DNA of 64,000 bases, taken from assembly GCA_025617745.1 (NCBI GenBank), contig CM046853.1, positions 12,602,974 through 12,666,973 of the forward strand, written 5' to 3'. The translations under genes were made by a program, and so were the position numbers. This DNA comes from Heliocidaris erythrogramma. Its lineage: Eukaryota > Echinodermata > Echinoidea > Camarodonta > Echinometridae. Under the pieces are notes generated by a model. That model was not told the DNA's origin. It did no database searches and was given only the letters and a program-made list of their open reading frames with translations. Shown piece by piece: positions 10,800 to 63,600 of the stretch (the stretch's first letter is position 1; each line of letters opens with the position of its first letter).

Positions 10800-12490
10800 G
10801 ATGAATTCAAGAATGTATCTTTATAAATGTACAAACTAAGGGTAATTGCAAGTAGATCATCTGTGCTTTGTTCCATGATATATGGGAAACTCAAGGACTT
10901 GATCGGCAGGCAGTTTGAAGTATGTCAAATGTGATCTCTTTTCCACTCAGAAAATTAACAAAAATGACAGAAATACAATTGCACTCCTAATACAGTATTG
11001 CTTAATTTGCTGATTCCCAAATGTTCCCTGAATAACAAACAAATTGTTTCAACATGGACAGGTTCCACTCTGTATTTTAGAAAAACCACTTTCAACATGA
11101 TTTATGACTAGCCTGTCTCTTTCTTCATGTTTCAAAATAATACTTTAAAGGTAGTACATAGTGTTTGCAAAGATCATAGATTTTTCAAATGTATATTATA
11201 TTCGATCCAAGTGACCTACAGAAGAAGATAATGGTCATTGGTCCGGTTAAAATCGGTCAAGGTTCAGAGATATAAAGGGTTTTCTTTTCTCGAGCTGTAT
11301 AGCGCAATCGTTGGCAAAGATATTCTCCTCCGCCAAAATAAAGGTTTTANNNNNNNNNNNNNNNNNNNNNNNNNNNNNNNNNNNNNNNNNNNNNNNNNNN
11401 NNNNNNNNNNNNNNNNNNNNNNNNNNNNNNNNNNNNNNNNNNNNNNNNNNNNNNNNNNNNNNNNNNNNNNNNNNNNNNNNNNNNNNNNNNNNNNNNNNNN
11501 NNNNNNNNNNNNNNNNNNNNNNNNNNNNNNNNNNNNNNNNNNNNNNNNNNNNNNNNNNNNNNNNNNNNNNNNNNNNNNNNNNNNNNNNNNNNNNNNNNNN
11601 NNNNNNNNNNNNNNNNNNNNNNNNNNNNNNNNNNNNNNNNNNNNNNNNNNNNNNNNNNNNNNNNNNNNNNNNNNNNNNNNNNNNNNNNNNNNNNNNNNNN
11701 NNNNNNNNNNNNNNNNNNNNNNNNNNNNNNNNNNNNNNNNNNNNNNNNNNNNNNNNNNNNNNNNNNNNNNNNNNNNNNNNNNNNNNNNNNNNNNNNNNNN
11801 NNNNNNNNNNNNNNNNNNNNNNNNNNNNNNNNNNNNNNNNNNNNNNNNNTTTCTAGCTTTCTCTCCCTCATTCTCCCTTTTTTTCTCTCTGTCTTGTTTC
11901 TTTCTCTATATCTATTTTTTTCTCTATATACATGCTTCTGTTCTCTTTTTTTCTCTCTCTCTCTTTAACCTTCTCAACTGTTCGTTCCTGTTCTTTCTCT
12001 TAGTTCTACTTTGATGACACAAAAGTTTTAACAATTTTAAAATTTTAAATGTAATATTGAGAGTTCTGTTCAGTTTTATTATGTATGATTATTTAGTAGT
12101 ATAATTTGTAGGTTGTATATAGTCATTCGTATTTTTATATTTTATGTGCTTATATGTTTTGACTCTGTAAACTTCATAATTTCAGCTTTAAAGCTGCATG
12201 TTCTTTTATTGAAATAAACTGACACAAAAAACCGAAACTTAATTTATGATGAATATTCTAATTTGTTTTTCAAAAAGAGCACAAACTAGATATAAATAGA
12301 GTATCAAATACATGTGTATATGATATTTGTTTGTTCACCTACAATTCTTTAGTTCGGGTATTATATAATAATTCCAAATATTTCTAATGCACAACATGAA
12401 TAAAATGTACTCAAAGTATATTTTTGCCAAGGAAAGAATATCCTTTTCATGATTTTCCGCAATTTCTTTCATTGTGACCTGCATGCTCAT
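10800..12490. other. Non-coding stretch with assembly gap
   Basis: 11350-11849 is exactly 500 N, the usual placeholder for a gap of unknown size. Open frames spanning it are meaningless. 11850-12003 is CT-rich low complexity. The rest is AT-rich with no recognisable gene. Confidence 0.8.
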
Positions 12491-51600: not shown

Positions 51601-54600
51601 GTTTCCCAAGGGAACATGCTTTAGAAGCTCTACAGCAATCTACCTCCCTGGAAAGAGCAGCTGAGTGGGCCCTAACACATCCACCAAGACTTCCTCAGGT
51701 AAGTACATCAATGGTTCTTCTTTTTATCTTATTCTGTTTCTTCTTCTGTAGTATGGAAATATTTATGAAATTTGTGTGAACTTGACCAGTACCCGTCTTT
51801 CTTGAGCACAAGGTTTATGTGAATGCATGTCAGCTACTATACATGTTTAAAACTAAAGCAGGTAATATTACATACATGGATTATTCAGAATTAGAGTGTA
51901 TTGGGTGATGAAATCAACAATAACGTAGTATACTATGCACATGTACTCTCATATCCATGACAGCTGTGTATATTTTTTTCTCAAATATAGTATAAAGAAT
52001 TGTATGGGGGAAAAAATCTATGTAATTTTTCCCCTCTCTGAAGAAATTATGACGGTACCAATTTGGAATAACACAGTTTGAATTTGCGATAAGTTTCTGA
52101 AAAAGTTTATGTAAATTGAAATAACATTATCTCTGTATTGACCCTCTCTCCTTATTTCTCTGACTCTTGTCTACTTTTTGTACATTTACAATAGACGTTT
52201 GGAACAGGATTGAGTGAAGAGGAAGAAATGATGCAAGCCATAGCCATGTCTCTAGGTGAAGCAATACAACCATCAGTAGATCAACAGGTAAGGATATTGG
52301 TTTAAAAGAATAGTCATGTCTATCAATATAGTGATGATAATGCAGATGAATCTATGATAATGCTGATGAATCTATGATAATGGTCATATAATTAAGGAAT
52401 CTTCTAGAAGGGAAATATTTTTCCAGTTATGTATGATTTTATGAACATAGAAATTTCCAGAAGAGAGAGTATTATTCATATGTGAAAAGTGAATATAATG
52501 TGTAGCAGTGAAATAATCAGAATGCACATACAGTAGAGAACATTCTAGATCTTTACATTGTGTGTGATGTACTATAGGATAATTGCAATGTATAATGTAC
52601 ATGTTGGAATGTGTTGATTACATGTATCCTGACCTTTACATGAACCTCTTAGAGTGTAACATTGCAATGAGTCTATTTATAGAAAAGGGGAATCCCCTTC
52701 CTTTGTTTGTTACAACTAGAACTATGTAGAACTTACAAGAGAGTTCCAAACTTTCATGAATACTGTAGTAGAATGTAGAAAATTCTAATTAAGGGTTGAG
52801 ATTGTATATAAGCTGGGAGCTTGCACAGAAATTTCAGAATTTATACCCTGAATACATCGTGGAGCATATATTGCATAAGTTCTCAGTTAACACCATCTGA
52901 TATTGATATCAACCTGTGGAGATCATCTTGGACCTCATCTTGGACTTCATCTTGGACCTCATCCTTGACATATTTGACGTCGTGTTCGACATCGTTATTG
53001 ACATTGTGGTCAACATCGTCATTGACATTGATTATCGAGATTGCAGTTGACACTGTTATCGACATTGTGATTGCCATCGTCTTGGACATCGTCATCGACA
53101 TCATTATCGACATCGATGACCTCCTGAATTATTTTGGACATTCTTCGGCTGGATCTGGAATCTTCTTCTGCCAGTTGGACAACATACCGTTTGGATTCAA
53201 TATTTGTGGATTAGCAGCCAGCTTACTCTACACTTCAGGAACATTCTGGACTAATAGGAATTTCCCAGCTGAGAAATTGTAAGTCTTTACCAGTTTAAGT
53301 ACATGTAGTGTATTTGTAACTAGAATCTGTAATTCTGTTATATCTGATGTTGGTAAATAATTAAATTAAACCATAAATCATCTCAAGTTTATATCTTTTG
53401 TTTGATTCTTATCTTTTGTGGATTTTGGATCGTAACAAACTGGGGGCTTGTCCGGGAAACGTAGCCAAATATAACAAGTCAAAAACAACAAAATTTAGAG
53501 AGAAATTTTGGAAATCTCAGGAAACTTCTAGAATACATTGCAGATAAGTTCTTAAATTCTGTAATTGTTTGTTGCATGCTTCATCATGACGACAATAGAT
53601 GTTGAAGTGTTTGTTAAGAGGACAGATTTGTCCCTTGGTCAGTTGAAGTCACTCAGAAAAGATGACTTGAGAGCTGTATGTCAGCATTTGGGAGTAGTTC
53701 TTACTCCTGAGTTAAAGAAGGCAGAGATTATTGATCTGCTAGCTAGTCACATGAAGCTCAGTAAAGAAAGTGAGGTTCCTTCTAAGGTTTCAAGTGATGT
53801 TCAACTCCAACTAGCAAAACTTGAGTTGGAAAAGGAGAGAATGAAATTAGAATTTGAAAGAGAAAGAGAAGAAAGGGAGTACCAGTTGAAATTGAAAGAA
53901 ATGGAGTTAGCACATGCAAATACTAACTCTACCAAAGAGAAATCTCCCCAAGGTTTTGACGTAGCGAAGAACATTCGCCTTGTGCCAAAATTTGATGAAG
54001 AGGGAGTTGATGCATATTTTGTATCATTTGAAAAAGTGGCCAAGAGGTTGGAATGGCCTCAGAAATACTGGACTCTGCTTCTTCAAAGCGTTTTTGTGGG
54101 AAAGGCGGCAAAAGTCTACTCATCTCTCTCTGAAGAGCAATCATGTGACTATGCTACAGTGAAGAATACTATTCTTAATGCATATGAGTTGGTCCCAGAA
54201 GCATACAGACGTAAATTTAGGAATATGCAAAGACAATCAGGCCAGACCTATGTTGAGTTTGCTAGGGAACAAGAAATGATGTTTGACAAGTGGTACAGAT
54301 CACTGAAAGTTGACGAAGATTTTGCCCAACTGAGAGAAGTTGTCCTCTTAGAGGAATTCAAAAAGGGTGTTCCTTTTGGCGTTAAGTCTCACCTAGATGA
54401 CCAAAGAATTACTCAATTGAGTAAGGCAGCTGTGGTAGCTGATGAATTTGAGGTCACACACAGAGGTAGTGGGGATAGGCTTCCTTTCAAAAACTTTCAG
54501 AATAAGAAGGGTAAAGGGGCATTTGAATCCCACAAGAAATTTGGTGAGGGAAAAACTGCTAGCAAGGAGAATGACACTGACAAGTCTCAGGCAGATAGAG

Positions 54601-57600
54601 GCGCGAAATCAAGTGAAAGATCTGTTAGTCAAAGTTCCAAAGTTTGTTTCCATTGCAATAAGCCAGGACATTTGAAAAAGTCCTGTTGGGAATTGATTGG
54701 GAAACCAACCAAAAGTAAGAAAGATGTGGGCTTAGTCAAGCAATCAAGTATTCCACCCAAGGAGTCCGTCCAGTTGGAATCAGTCCAAGATGTTGAGAGT
54801 GTTTCTCTAGTATTTGCCGATAAGGTCAAGAAGGTTGATGAGAGCTTTAGAAGCTTTTTGCATGATGGTGAGGTATCCCCCTGTTCGACTGGTGCTGTAG
54901 GTAAGCCAGTGGTTATCCTTCGAGATACAGGGGCTGCTCAGTCCCTGATGATGTCAGGGCATTTGACTCTCCCACCAGAGAGTTCAGAGAATGCCAAAGT
55001 TTTGGTTCGAGGCATTGGTCCGGATTATGTGTCGGTTCCTTTGCATAAGGTCGACTTAAAGTGTGACCTAGTTAGTGGTCCTGTAACTGTTGGTGTCGTA
55101 CCGGAATTACCCGTGGACGGGGTTGACTTTTTGTTGGGTAACGACTTGGCTGGAGAGAAAGTTGTTGCATCTCCAGTGGTTTCAGAGAAGCCGGTTGAGG
55201 TAGCTGAAACTGAACGGTTGCAGGAGGATTTTCCTGGAATTTTCCCGGATTGTGTTGTCACTAGGTCTCAGGCTCGGAGGGCTGAACAGGATGATGCGGA
55301 TTCTATTGAGGTGGAGGAGAGTACTGATGTCTGGTTAGCTGAAACCTTTTTCAAGGACTTGGATGGGGATAATGTTGAAGGCTCTGTTGCAGACAATGAT
55401 GAGTTGTTTAGCAAATCTTCCCTTGTACAGGCACAACAGGCGGATCCAGAATTGAAAGGCTTGTCACAGACGGCATGTTCTGAGGCTGAGGCTGATAAGG
55501 TTCCTGAGTGCTATTATGTCAAAGGTGACATATTGATGAGGAAGTGGAGACCTCCCCGGAAACCAGCTAATGAAGAGTGGTGTGTAGTTCACCAAGTTGT
55601 TGTTCCTCCCTGTTACCGCACAGAGATTCTGAGGATGGCTCACGAGTTGCCTATGGCAGGTCATTTAGGTATTCGGAAGACGGAGGTTAGGGTCATGAGG
55701 CATTTCTATTGGCCGAAGATGCACAAGGATGTTGTGCAGTTCTGTAAGACATGTCATACATGTCAGGTGGTTGGGAAGGCACAGCCTTCTATCAAGCCTG
55801 CTCCCTTGATACCGATACCTGCATTTGATGAACCTTTTACTAGGGTTCTTGTTGACTGTGTTGGACCCTTACCCAGAACTAGGTCGGGTCACAAGTATCT
55901 TCTTACGATTATGGATTTGTCTACACGTTTTCCAGAGGCGATACCGTTGAGAAGTACCACTGCACAGCCAGTAGTACAGGCGCTAGTGCAGTTTTTCACT
56001 AGGTATGGTTTGCCCAAGGAAATTCAGTCAGACCAAGGATCGAATTTCATGTCAGGAGTGTTTCAGCAAGTGATGCATGAGTTAGGGATAAAGCAGATCA
56101 AGTCATCCGCTTATCATCCACAGTCCCAAGGTGCATTAGAGCGCTATCACCAGACCCTGAAGACCATGCTTAGGGCATATTGTGAAGAGTATCCTGATGA
56201 CTGGGATAAAGGTATCCCATTCTTGCTGTTCGCGACCAGGGATTCCCCGAATGAGTCGACAGGCTTCAGTCCATTTGAGCTGGTCTATGGTCACGAGGTT
56301 AGGGGTCCCCTTAAGCTGATCAAAGAAAAGTTCATGGGTCAGAATGACGAGGTAAACCTTCTTGACTATGTGTCAAAGTTTCGAGAAAGGCTCTCAAAGG
56401 CTTGTGAGGTAGCCAAAGAACACTTGAAAGTGTCGCAAGCTAAAATGAAAACACAGGCAGACAAGAAGGCAAAAGAGCGCAACTTCAAGCCTGGAGATAG
56501 GGTGTTAGTGTTGTTGCCTTTGCTAGGTGAGCCCTTGAAAGCTAGGTTTAGTGGTCCCTACACTGTCAAAAAGAAACTGAATGATGTCAACTATGTGATC
56601 AGTACCCCTGACAGAAGAAAGAGTCAAAGAGTATGTCATGTAAACATGCTGAAAGAATACTTTGAACGTGAGGCTAATCAGCCAGTAGGTGTAGCACATG
56701 TTGTAAAAGAAGAGAAGCTAGAAGATGTAAATAAAGGCAATGTAGAGACAGAGAGTGAATTGTCTCACACAGATGTGTCTACAAATGAACCATGTGGAGT
56801 GAAATTGTCTAACTCAGAAATGTTAGAAAATTTGGATGATGCACTGAAGCATCTCTCTGATGAACAGAGAATTGACATATCTGGCTTGTTGAAAGATTAT
56901 AAGCATGTGTGTAAAGATAGACCAGGTCGTACTGCCTTGACTGTACATGATGTAGATGTAGGTGATGTAAAACCTATCAAACAACATCCATATAGACTTA
57001 ATCCAAGCAAGTTGGAAAAAGTGAATGAGGAAATCCAGTTCATGTTAGATAATGACATAATTGAACCAAGTCAGAGTAGTTGGAGTTCCCCTATTGTAAT
57101 GGTCCCAAAGCCGGATGGCTCTCAGAGATTTTGTATAGATTACCGCAAGGTAAATGCAATCACTAAGACCGACTCATATCCAATTCCTAGGTTGGAAGAT
57201 TGTATCGATAGGGTTGGGAACTCTGCCTTTGTCACTAAGATAGACTTGCTGAAGGGATATTGGCAGGTGCCACTGACTGACAGAGCCAAGGAAATATCAG
57301 CCTTTGTCACACCGGATGGCTTATTTCAATGCAAAGTCATGCCGTTTGGAATGAAGAATGCCCCAGCAACCTTTCAAAGATTGACAAATCAGGTGATTGC
57401 TGGGCTTGACAATTGTGTTGTGTACATAGATGACATCTTAGTGTACAGTGATACATGGAATGACCATCTCAATCATTTGAGATTACTGTTTGACAGACTA
57501 GATAAAGCCAACTTAGTAGTTAATCTGATGAAGAGTGAATTTGGCAAGGCAAAGGTCACTTATCTTGGTCATGTGGTTGGTCAGGGGCAAGTGCTACCGA

Positions 57601-60600
57601 GAGAAGCAAAGATTCAGGCAATCTTAGACTTCCCCATTCCCACAACTAAGAAAGAGTTGCTCAGATTCCTAGGTATGAGTGGTTTCTACAGGAAGTTCGT
57701 TCCAAATTACAGTACTGTGGTTAGTCCACTCACAAACTTGCTGAAAGCAAAAGTGAAGTATGTATGGTCTGATGCATGTCAGAGATCATTTGAGAAGTTG
57801 AAGGCCATTTTGGTGAATGAGCCTGTTTTGGCAGCTCCAAACTTCACAAAGCCATTCAAGGTGGCTATTGATGCCAGTGATGTTGGAGTGGGAGCAGTGT
57901 TGCTCCAAGAGGATGAAGAAGGCTTTGAAAAATCAGTCTGTTACTTCTCAAAGAAACTCAACCAATATCAGAAGAAGTATTCAACTATCGAAAAAGAGGC
58001 TTTGAGTCTTGTACTCGCTCTCCAGCAGTTTGAGGTGTACCTAACCAACAGTAATGGTGATATCATGGTCTACACAGACCATAACCCTCTTGTGTTCTTG
58101 GAGAAATTCAAAACAAAGAACCAAAGACTGTACAGGTGGAGCCTTATGCTCCAACCTTTCCCCTTGAAAATTGTACACATTCGTGGAAAGAATAATGTGA
58201 TTGCTGATGCTCTTTCAAGGATGTAAAGAGAGAAATTACTCTTTTTTAGACAAAGTTTGTCATTTATAATTGCATTTTTCTTTTTTGATGGTCCTTAAAT
58301 ACATGTGTGATATGTAATGCCTTTGTACAGGATGAAAGGCTTATCTGGATAATTTGAAACAGGTTGAATCTTAAAGAAACCTTTACTACGGTAAAGCTTT
58401 CTTTTTCCCGGTGGGGGAGGTGTGATATAATTAAGGAATCTTCTGGAAGGGAATTATTTTTCCAGTTATGTATGATTTTATGAACATAGAAATTTCCAGA
58501 AGAGAGAGTATTATTCATATGTGAAAAGTGAATATAATGTGTAGCAGTGAAATAATCAGAATGCACATACAGTAGAGAACATTCTAGATCTTTACATTGT
58601 GTGTGATGTACTATAGGATAATTGCAATGTATAATGTACATGTTGGAATGTGTTGATTACATGTATCCTGACCTTTACATGAACCTCTTAGAGTGTAACA
58701 TTGCAATGAGTCTATTTATAGAAAAGGGGAATCCCCTTCCTTTGTTTGTTATAACTAGAACTATGTAGAACTTACAAGAGAGTTCCAAACTTTCATGAAT
58801 ACTGTAGTAGAATGTAGAAAATTCTAATTAAGGGTTGAGATTGTATATAAGCTGGGAGCTTGCACAGAAATTTCAGAATTTATACCCTGAATACATCGTG
58901 GAGCATATATTGCATAAGTTCTCAGTTAACACCATCTGATATTGATATCAACCTGTGGAGATCATCTTGGACCTCATCTTGGACTTCATCTTGGACCTCA
59001 TCCTTGACATATTTGACGTCGTGTTCGACATCGTTATTGACATTGTGGTCAACATCGTCATTGACATTGATTATCGAGATTGCAGTTGACACTGTTATCG
59101 ACATTGTGATTGCCATCGTCTTGGACATCGTCATCGACATCATTATCGACATCGATGACCTCCTGAATTATTTTGGACATTCTTCGGCTGGATCTGGAAT
59201 CTTCTTCTGCCAGTTGGACAACATACCGTTTGGATTCAATATTTGTGGATTAGCAGCCAGCTTACTCTACACTTCAGGAACATTCTGGACTAATAGGAAT
59301 TTCCCAGCTGAGAAATTGTAAGTCTTTACCAGTTTAAGTACATGTAGTGTATTTGTAACTAGAATCTGTAATTCTGTTATATCTGATGTTGGTAAATAAT
59401 TAAATTAAACCATAAATCATCTCAAGTTTATATCTTTTGTTTGATTCTTATCTTTTGTGGCTCTTGGATCGTAAGATAATGCTGATGAGGAGTTGGATGA
59501 CTGTAAAGAAGTAATTAAAGCAAGTTTTCCAACAGCTCTGCCTTGCTGATTGTGATTATGAAAACAAGAAAAACATTTAGTAATCTGATTTTTATGGAGA
59601 TCCTCTAGTTTTCAGCCTATGTTAGTACTGGTGACAGATGTAACCTAAAACATCACAACCATACATAAGTCACAAGAGATTTTCTGTGTGAGAATCATGA
59701 ACTTAAACTTCTCCTTTGAGGATTACCCCATAATTATTTTCCTATATTCCTTGAATATCTTCAGGAGGAGGAAAAGAAAAAGAAAGAGGAGGAGGAACGT
59801 AAGAAGAAGGAAGAGGACGAAAGGAAGCAGAAGATGATGGAAGAACAAGACAAGATTCCAGAGGAAGCGCCACTCGATAAGGCCATCCTCAATGAGTTTG
59901 TGGATTCTATGCTGCCAGGATGTCTCAAGCTGCTTGATGATATACCAGAAACTGTTTACAGGTAATGCAATTATAACAGAATTGTCTATCAACAAAAGAA
60001 AGAAAAAAATTATATTTACATATATAATTATAATGAACAATATTGTGATATCAAAAGCTTTGATGTTGATGACTTTGTTTCATGTGGTAATGAGGTGCCA
60101 AAGATGCTATAAGATGCTAATGGATTGTACATGTTTTAGAGGACAATAGTTGGTGAAATGTTTTTGTCTTGTATTTTTTGCAGAGTGTGTGATCTACTAG
60201 TGGTGGCCAATAATAGGAATGGCACTGAATGGAGAGACAAGATGCTTGAAATGGTTATCAGTCAGGTAAGACTTCACATACTTACCTAACAAAAGAACTT
60301 GGTTTTATTTCTATTAATACAGTTGTAATTTTATTTCTCTTGAGTCTTAACCTATAATTCCATTTATTATTTACACACTTTTTCCCTGTCCCATGTTTCA
60401 GTCTTTCCTTTCTCACTTCTTCGTCTCTTTATCCAGATATAAATGAAAATATCAAATACTTACTAAATACATTTTTGCAAGGAGTTATGAGGGGTTTTGC
60501 TTTAATTTATTCATTTCTGTATTGATGTATTAGACTTTCTTAAAAGAAAAAGGGAATGAATATATCAAGGTGATAGTAAGTCAAGCCGTTGCGCTATGTA

Positions 60601-63600
60601 GTGATTTTAAATCTGGATACTACTTTGTTGTTTATGTTACAGATTTCTGAGAACGCTCGGTTGTTGTGCAATAGCTTTGCCAGTATTTTAGTGGACCCAG
60701 CTGGTGTGACAGACACTAAGGTCATAGAAAACTTATCTTCATGCCTGGCCTCTAGAATTCACCTACTCTGTCTTCTCTTTGAGGTAAGTGCAACACTGTC
60801 GAACATCTTTTTTGTAAAAAGAAAACTTAGATTTAAAGCCTCATTCATCACTTATAATCACAAATGAAGTGGACAGAAGTAGTGAAATTGCACTTTTAAT
60901 TGCTTATTCCCATTTTGTTTGAGTGTGGAGATTCTCTCATGAATATGTTGAATTACAATAAAAACCTTAAAGACTCTAAGATTTTCTCTGTTGTTATAGT
61001 GATACTTGCCATTATACTCACTCCTATGGTTGGTTGTATCATTTGCAGGAGATTCGAATGGCTTGTGCTCAGAGAGTTGAGGCTTCTAACATCCTTGATA
61101 CCCTCATTACACTTCTCTACACAGCACAGAAATGGATGGCTAAGATGAAGCTTACCAAGACACCAAAGTATGAACCATTCTTGTTTTATTATTGATGCTT
61201 CTTCATTTTCATGTTATTTTCGCATTGTATCTCGTTTTTGTTTGTTGTGTATATGAAGGTATCATTGATTTTGAATTTGGTCAGCGTGCAGTATGTTGTA
61301 ACTTATTTGAGTTCCTTTAGTGAGAATAAATATGAACAAAATCCATTAGCTACAGCCCTAAATTTTAGGTATGCACTAGATACCTCGGCTTTTCCTGGAT
61401 TAACATTGATTATAATTAAAGAGCTTATAAAACCTCCATATATTTTATCAATGACATATTTACAGGCAGGATATGATATTTTCCTCTTTAACTTAGTTTT
61501 TATGAAACTTATCTGGATGCTGTAAAATGTCCAGCATGAATATATTTCAGCTTCGTATTCATTCATATTATGAATGTTTTGATTTGTTTGCCATAGGTGG
61601 ATGGGTCCAGCACTGCTCCTCATTGATCTCTATGAGAAGACTGTTCTCACATGCAAGAGGAAGGTGGCACAACAGGTAAAAATGGAGTTCTGTTTTTCAT
61701 TAGGGTTGCAAAGATGAAAGAGTTATGCAGCCAGTGCTCTCCACCCATAACTGCCATATGAAGTCATTCTGATATTTGTTTTATTACTCTTATGGATTCC
61801 TTTGTCTGTGACATGTTTAACATATTTTTCACTTCATCAAAATTTGACAGGGCATGTTCTGAATGGAATAGTTTCCCCACAAATAAAAGAAAGCTATGTT
61901 TCTCCATCTGTACAGGGTGCTTCACATACATGGAAGTGGTTTGATGACTCTACAGGCCGCTGGTGTACTTACAGTCGTAGCAACAACAAGACCATAGACG
62001 ATGCGTACTGGGCAGGCAAACCTAGCGTGAAGTTCACTGCTGCCCGGAGAAGATATGTTGTCCACTTCAACACCATGATACAGGTAAATGTGTGCAATGA
62101 AGTTACTCAAAGGAAGGATACTGGTACTCTTTTTAAGTACTGCCAGAAAATTAGTTGTAAGCTTCTCAATATGGGCATAAAGACACCTTTTCAAGTACTT
62201 TGTCGTTAAGAACTTTAAATAATTTCTTTTTTCCTTTCATTCCCATATTTGTCTCCCTCTGAACCCCTCTCTCTCTCTCTCTCTTTTTTTCTTTGCCCGT
62301 TTCTGTCTGTCCACACATGTATCTCTCTTTCTTGTGCAATTTTTTTTCTCTCTCTCTACATGTGTATCTGACTCTGTACGTGCGTATTGATATATCTCTA
62401 CCCGCTTCTCTCTTTCTATCTTTTATACATAGGTGAATGAAGAGACAATGAACAAGAGGCCTATCATGCAGGCCTTACCCACCCCAAAGGCTGAAGAAGA
62501 CAAAGGTGATAAGAAGGAGGATGATGGAGAGAGAGAAGCCAAGAAGCTCAAGACTAGTGAGAGTCTGGAATCTGCCACAAAGACAGAAGGTAAGAAAATA
62601 ATTTCTGAATCTCTTCAATGCAGTGAGTTTCAGAACAAAATGATTTGCATTGATCACTATTCATAAAGCACTCTAAACTAATTAATGGAAGTTTCCACAG
62701 TAATTATTGAGGTTTGATATTAAAATATGTTTTAATTGTTTAGTTAATACATATGAGATATTTATGACTTGCGTGATTTTGCTATAGTTTTGAATGCATG
62801 TTACTTCCTTGACTTATAAATGCAGATGTAAACTCTACTTAACATTTAGCTAATTCGTTGAAATACCAATTTACAATAAATTTTAGTAAATGCAGTTTTT
62901 TTATGATATGCTGCATCCTGTAGAAGAAATAACATTACAAAACAATCATCCTATCTTTTTAAAAAGCTAATTACTCATTTGTCTTTTCCCTTTTAGTTGC
63001 AGGAACAAGTCAAGAGAGTAAGGATGAATCGATTGCCAAAGAACCTGAAATCATTGAGATTCAAGGACTGGGAGAAAAAGAAATTCCAACTCTGATCAGG
63101 TAAACCACCCTTTTTCAGTAATTAATATACTATTAATACATGGTTGAGAGTGCGTTGGTACGATCTGGCAACACAAATGTTTTTATCGTGGTGTACTATA
63201 CGCACGAAGCGCAAGCCGATTGTGTTGGACACCACGATAAAAACCTGCGTGTTGCCGGATCGCACTAACGCACAAACTCACAACCATGTATTAAAAGATT
63301 TATAAAACGGTCGGCAATATGATTATGAAGTCCATAAATATGGTTACAAACCCCATAGAAACGCCAAGAGTCGCACAGTCATGGAGGTTGCCATTTGCCC
63401 TCCTGGATGACCATCGCATAAGCGCAGCCAATAAAAGTCATGCCCGTTTCAGTGCGCGCATGTAATCCCTGCGCTAAAATGACAATTAAACTATGCGATA
63501 TCATTGCGTTTTTCAGTTTGCACGCACCAGAGGTACGCGTACGCGCAGCTCAGCCGTGCGTTAGTTCTTTTTTTTGCACTGTTACGTGGTGTTATTTGAC

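Follow-up and report, generated by a model that had tools for sequence, protein, structure and literature searches.

The stretch analysed here, referred to as the window, comprises 64,000 nucleotides of the forward strand of contig CM046853.1 of the echinoid Heliocidaris erythrogramma, and all positions given below are those of the window unless another contig is named. A complete LTR retrotransposon lies on the plus strand at positions 52382-59476. Its two LTRs are direct repeats of 1056 bp each (52382-53437 and 58421-59476) that differ by eight mismatches and no indel, and the 4-bp sequence TAAT flanks both ends of the element as a target-site duplication (52378-52381 and 59477-59480). Reading of the sequence also revealed a primer-binding site, TGGGGGCTTGTCCGGGA, at 53441-53457, which we take to resemble a tRNA-Pro site, and a polypurine tract, GGTGGGGGAGG, with one T inside at 58410-58420. 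Together with a full coding frame, these are the features expected of an autonomous LTR retrotransposon. The first-pass annotation mentions none of the LTRs, primer site, polypurine tract and target duplication, nor the SCAN-type capsid described below. The inner LTR tips of this copy are normal (TG and CA); the outer tips are altered (52382-52385 and 59475-59476), with GG for TG and GA for CA. Since the target is a stretch of short repeats, later slippage or conversion at the outer tips is possible. In the three other family copies for which both outer LTR ends were fetched, the LTRs end in TG...CA in every case, and 4-bp target duplications (AGAA, CCCT and CGTC) were read on both sides. The first-pass annotation had called the element fully intact, which holds for the coding frame and not for the outer LTR tips. 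Within each LTR, GACATCGT-like repeats (52821-53282 and 58860-59321) hold a 153-aa frame open, and this frame was without a Pfam match in the 3' copy.

Downstream of the element we found an exon with the WWE domain of HUWE1 at 61928-62113 (HUWE1 match 1.6e-22; Pfam 1e-13). A short stretch preceding this exon matched HUWE1 weakly (E 0.25), behind a better-scoring AN1-type zinc finger protein 2B (0.098), and we read it as a putative ubiquitin-interacting exon. The element therefore most likely lies within an intron of a HUWE1-like gene and has the same orientation as that gene. The window also contains a run of N at about 11350-11850. As to the host mitochondrion, TGA must be read as Trp in COX1, and the COX1 AAA codons stand opposite mammalian Asn at three of four places and opposite Gly at the fourth. 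Compared with the best PDB chain, COX1 scored 851.0 bits with translation table 9 (echinoderm/flatworm) versus 838.4 bits with table 5. A large-rRNA match abuts the COX1 start and tRNA-Arg follows COX1 on the same strand, an arrangement which we take to be an echinoid- or holothuroid-like mitochondrial gene order. Mitochondrial code and gene order thus indicate that the host is most likely an echinoderm.

The coding region of the element consists of a single gag-pol frame that is uninterrupted from the first ATG at 53586 to the stop at 58226 (the open reading frame is listed from a TTG at 53565). The absence of a Gag-Pol shift, as claimed by the first-pass annotation, is real. The Gag N-terminus has what we would call a SAP-like look, for which Pfam gave no support. 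It is followed by a SCAN-type capsid domain (54195-54461; Pfam SCAN, E 3.8e-10) and a CCHC zinc knuckle at 54645-54686, recognised by its motif together with a Pfam match of 0.0024 and 18.3 bits that is under the curated threshold of 20.8. The protease is represented by the active-site motif DTGA (54924-54935), with a sub-threshold RVP match (0.076). The integrase (IN) comprises an H2C2 zinc-binding domain (55602-55772; Pfam Integrase_H2C2, E 5.6e-21), a core (55833-56141; Pfam rve, 1.1e-14, 54.9 bits) and a C-terminal GPY module (56553-56654; Integrase_p58_C, 2.9e-8), in which GPY itself is encoded at 56553-56561. The codons of the catalytic D, D(35)E residues start at 55854, 56031 and 56139, corresponding to D764, D823 and E859; 35 residues separate D823 from E859. 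Reverse transcriptase (RT; 57102-57575; RVT_1, E 1.8e-35) with its YIDD motif at 57423-57434 and RNase H (RH; 57840-58160; RT_RNaseH, E 8.1e-33) stand last. Pfam matches and motif positions thus bear out the order described earlier for this frame, namely CCHC, DTGA protease, H2C2/DD35E integrase with GPY module, YIDD RT and RNase H, with the SCAN domain preceding them all.

In Ty1/copia elements IN also precedes RT-RH, as in the window element, but RT and IN of the latter are of the gypsy type. The nearest solved structures are those of yeast Ty3 (PDB 4ol8, 7q5b), both for RT-RH (2.8e-85) and for IN (3.5e-43), with 40% identity to the window element in RT and 28% in IN; unlike the window element, Ty3 carries RT-RH before IN. 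No copia entry was seen among the best 60 of 197 solved-structure matches for RT-RH or among the listed matches for IN (116 in all). The host genome also holds gypsy elements of normal order (L009-L038), which share the superfamily with the window element, and 12 of them showed 27-32% identity to its IN. A scan of viral contigs with the RT piece of the window element found no relative.

The first-pass annotation had suggested a search for further copies, and the family proved to be multicopy in the host genome (1.06 Gb, 26 contigs). A 1,001-bp piece of the element gave 233 candidates, and all 40 scored places, the window included, were 98-100% identical. Pairwise comparison of seven copies without frameshift, one of them the window copy (L001), over positions 54000-58000 yielded a pooled pN/pS of 0.20 (21 pairs; L004 was excluded owing to a frameshift). 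Therefore, the protein of the family is under purifying selection. A genome search for SCAN domains was scored for 150 of 545 candidates, all of which were above the cut-off, and open frames of at least 1500 aa were present at 39 of these 150 places. Thus, a single long gag-pol frame is common in the SCAN group and not peculiar to the window copy. Among the normal-order gypsy elements, open frames reached up to 1791 aa at the 150 rve places listed. On one strand at C4:47772064, 47778198 and 47784332 (L082, L083) the internal region of the family occurs three times at a spacing of 6,134 bp, with an LTR behind the third internal region and then another primer site; these loci are a tandem (LTR-internal)n array.

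To place the domain order of the window element we compared it with other loci of the genome. All eight family loci fetched, one of them the window itself, have the order SCAN-IN-RT-RH, and the six longer stretches of other SCAN elements likewise read IN, RT, RH. One of these six, L070, has its frame shifted in RNase H. At 26 of the best 30 SCAN loci (L039-L068) IN comes after SCAN with no intervening RT or RNase H match. Two of the remaining loci (L050, L063) show no pol match within the stretch, and at the other two (L047, L052) RT/RH is close to SCAN and an IN match is absent; we rejected a third domain order for this pair and read them as probable internal-deletion derivatives. The CCHC motif is retained in the SCAN frame at 21 of these 30 loci. 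A protease motif, LRDSG, was found in the SCAN frame at 22 of them with a wider pattern; the narrower pattern DTGA/DSGA matched at none of the other SCAN loci. Moreover, the listed matches include nine pairs of SCAN and RNase H that share a strand and are no more than 5 kb apart, and in each of them RNase H lies 3.4-4.6 kb downstream of SCAN. At C11:8974316 an rve match was listed 2.6 kb upstream of its SCAN partner, and at C12:863532 rve and RH are 4.6 kb apart; both pairs were taken as neighbouring elements. The corresponding rve search was scored for 150 of 2,431 candidates, the lowest listed at 62.2 bits, so that the window family with its 54.9 bits falls below the lowest rve match listed. 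RT and/or RNase H lies upstream of IN at 29 of the best 30 rve loci (L009-L038) and the remaining one (L031) shows IN alone; the IN-first order occurs at none of these 30.

All sequences in the phylogenetic trees came from this one genome, apart from the Ty3 segments that served as outgroup; named sequences of Gmr1, CsRn1, Mag and copia were not part of the set. In the first trees nine IN-first sequences were combined with normal-order loci, of which 10 out of 30 entered the RT tree and 12 the IN tree. Since near-copies are among the nine (the window, L003 and L007; L072 and L075), they represent about six families. In a second round the long-branched L036 was removed, leaving 9 and 11 normal-order sequences, respectively. 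In the RT+RH tree, in which L003, L007 and L070 have a partial RNase H, the nine IN-first sequences form one clade with a support of 97/98. In the IN tree without L036 the IN-first clade is supported with 92/92 and the normal-order sequences with 97/94. With L036 kept, the IN-first clade received 92/93, but the normal-order sequences were not one group and needed two changes. RT alone (194 aa) gave 56/80 for the IN-first clade. Hence, within one genome plus Ty3, the window element groups by both RT and IN with the other IN-first elements and separately from gypsy elements of normal order, albeit less firmly by RT alone. The agreement of the IN and RT+RH trees argues for one rearrangement inside gypsy within the sampling of one genome, and the most likely origin of the IN-before-RT order is within Ty3/gypsy itself.

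Two deep groups can be told apart among the sampled IN-first elements. The first is the window type, to which L071, L072 and L075 belong; the second comprises L070, L073 and L074, and its IN is about 40% identical to that of the window type. RT identity of the window element is 42-48% to the second group and 31-50% to several normal-order sequences, i.e. it is no closer to the former. L040 is the same element as L070, and its Gag N-terminus differs from the window type and is shorter. This second IN-first type, with the shorter, different Gag N-terminus and DSGC replacing DTGA, was observed at L039-L046 and L070.

The Gmr1 clade of Ty3/gypsy (Goodwin and Poulter 2002, as cited in later work) combines gypsy-type domains with an IN placed upstream of RT (PMC8220671, PMC3587641, PMC6238403, PMC2774666), and a SCAN-type Gag is reported for Gmr elements (PMC4131045). 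In all three respects the window element is alike: its pol is gypsy-type, its integrase lies upstream of reverse transcriptase and its Gag capsid is of the SCAN type. With RT+RH and IN each forming a single IN-first clade, the Gmr1-group membership proposed earlier is supported. The accompanying statement that Gmr1 is reported from deuterostomes only is out of date. Four crustacean elements were related to the Gmr1 clade by RT/RH and are called the first in protostomes by their authors, the RT and IN pieces being non-overlapping so that the order was not seen in one piece (PMC3587641), and the annelid family LGF3 was placed in the clade (PMC8220671). Another report lists Gmr1 among the clades of several phyla but did not recover it in its own annelid set (PMC8556966). 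In frogs, a SCAN domain was described for over 50% of the Gmr elements and, as that account puts it, for no other type (PMC4131045). The vertebrate SCAN domain is considered to derive from a Gmr1-like Gag (PMC4592553, PMC3424704), and the SCAN fold is reported to be common to the capsid lobes of Ty3 and HIV (PMC6525542).

The unusual order could be read falsely if two normal-order elements had been fused, through misassembly or through nesting of one in the other, and the first-pass annotation had itself named misassembly as a finding that would overturn its reading. However, the window frame is single and uninterrupted, the identical order recurs at the seven other family loci and in the six stretches of other SCAN elements, and the position of RNase H downstream of SCAN in the nine listed pairs points the same way. 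As independent loci share the IN-RT-RH order and the 40 scored places match at 98-100%, misassembly is ruled out in practice; we found nothing in favour of such a fusion and regard it as extremely improbable. Domain order taken by itself would also suit the capture of an integrase of copia type by a gypsy element, or else a copia-like element, with the order inherited from copia. This was rejected as very unlikely, since the integrase is of the gypsy type according to its H2C2 Pfam model, its GPY module and its best solved match, the Ty3 integrase. Moreover, the IN and RT+RH trees, which contain no copia integrase, both give an IN-first clade beside normal-order gypsy.

That the IN-first order arose a second time, by convergence and independently of vertebrate and tunicate Gmr1, seems unlikely to us, even if somewhat less so than the two preceding scenarios. 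The trees contain no named Gmr1 sequence and support from RT alone is modest, which would leave room for it; but a SCAN-type Gag has been reported for Gmr1-like elements (PMC4131045, PMC3424704), and as SCAN is followed by IN at 26 of the 30 SCAN loci, an independent origin needs the convergence of two traits. We therefore favour, with a probability of roughly 0.92, a complete, recently inserted and presumably autonomous Gmr1-type Ty3/gypsy LTR retrotransposon in an intron of a HUWE1-like echinoderm gene. The window element is a good, clean specimen of a known group and not a new kind of element. Judged from its sequence features, the element would be transcribed from its LTR and translated into one Gag-Pol precursor, which would be cut by the element's own protease. 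Particles would be assembled via the SCAN-type capsid, tRNA-Pro would prime reverse transcription, and IN would integrate the element by cuts staggered by 4 bp. A single move of the IN module within a gypsy lineage most likely gave rise to the IN-before-RT order.

As an example of the unusual placement of IN before RT, the window element is clean, young and multicopy. The same genome holds relatives in both orders, so the timing and manner of the move of the IN module can be asked. It is conceivable, though in our opinion rather doubtful, that the second IN-first group represents a clade not yet described, sister to Gmr1 proper; if true, this host would offer a place for dating a single rearrangement. 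Furthermore, the window element carries the capsid type that is thought to be ancestral to the vertebrate SCAN transcription factors (PMC4592553, PMC3424704).
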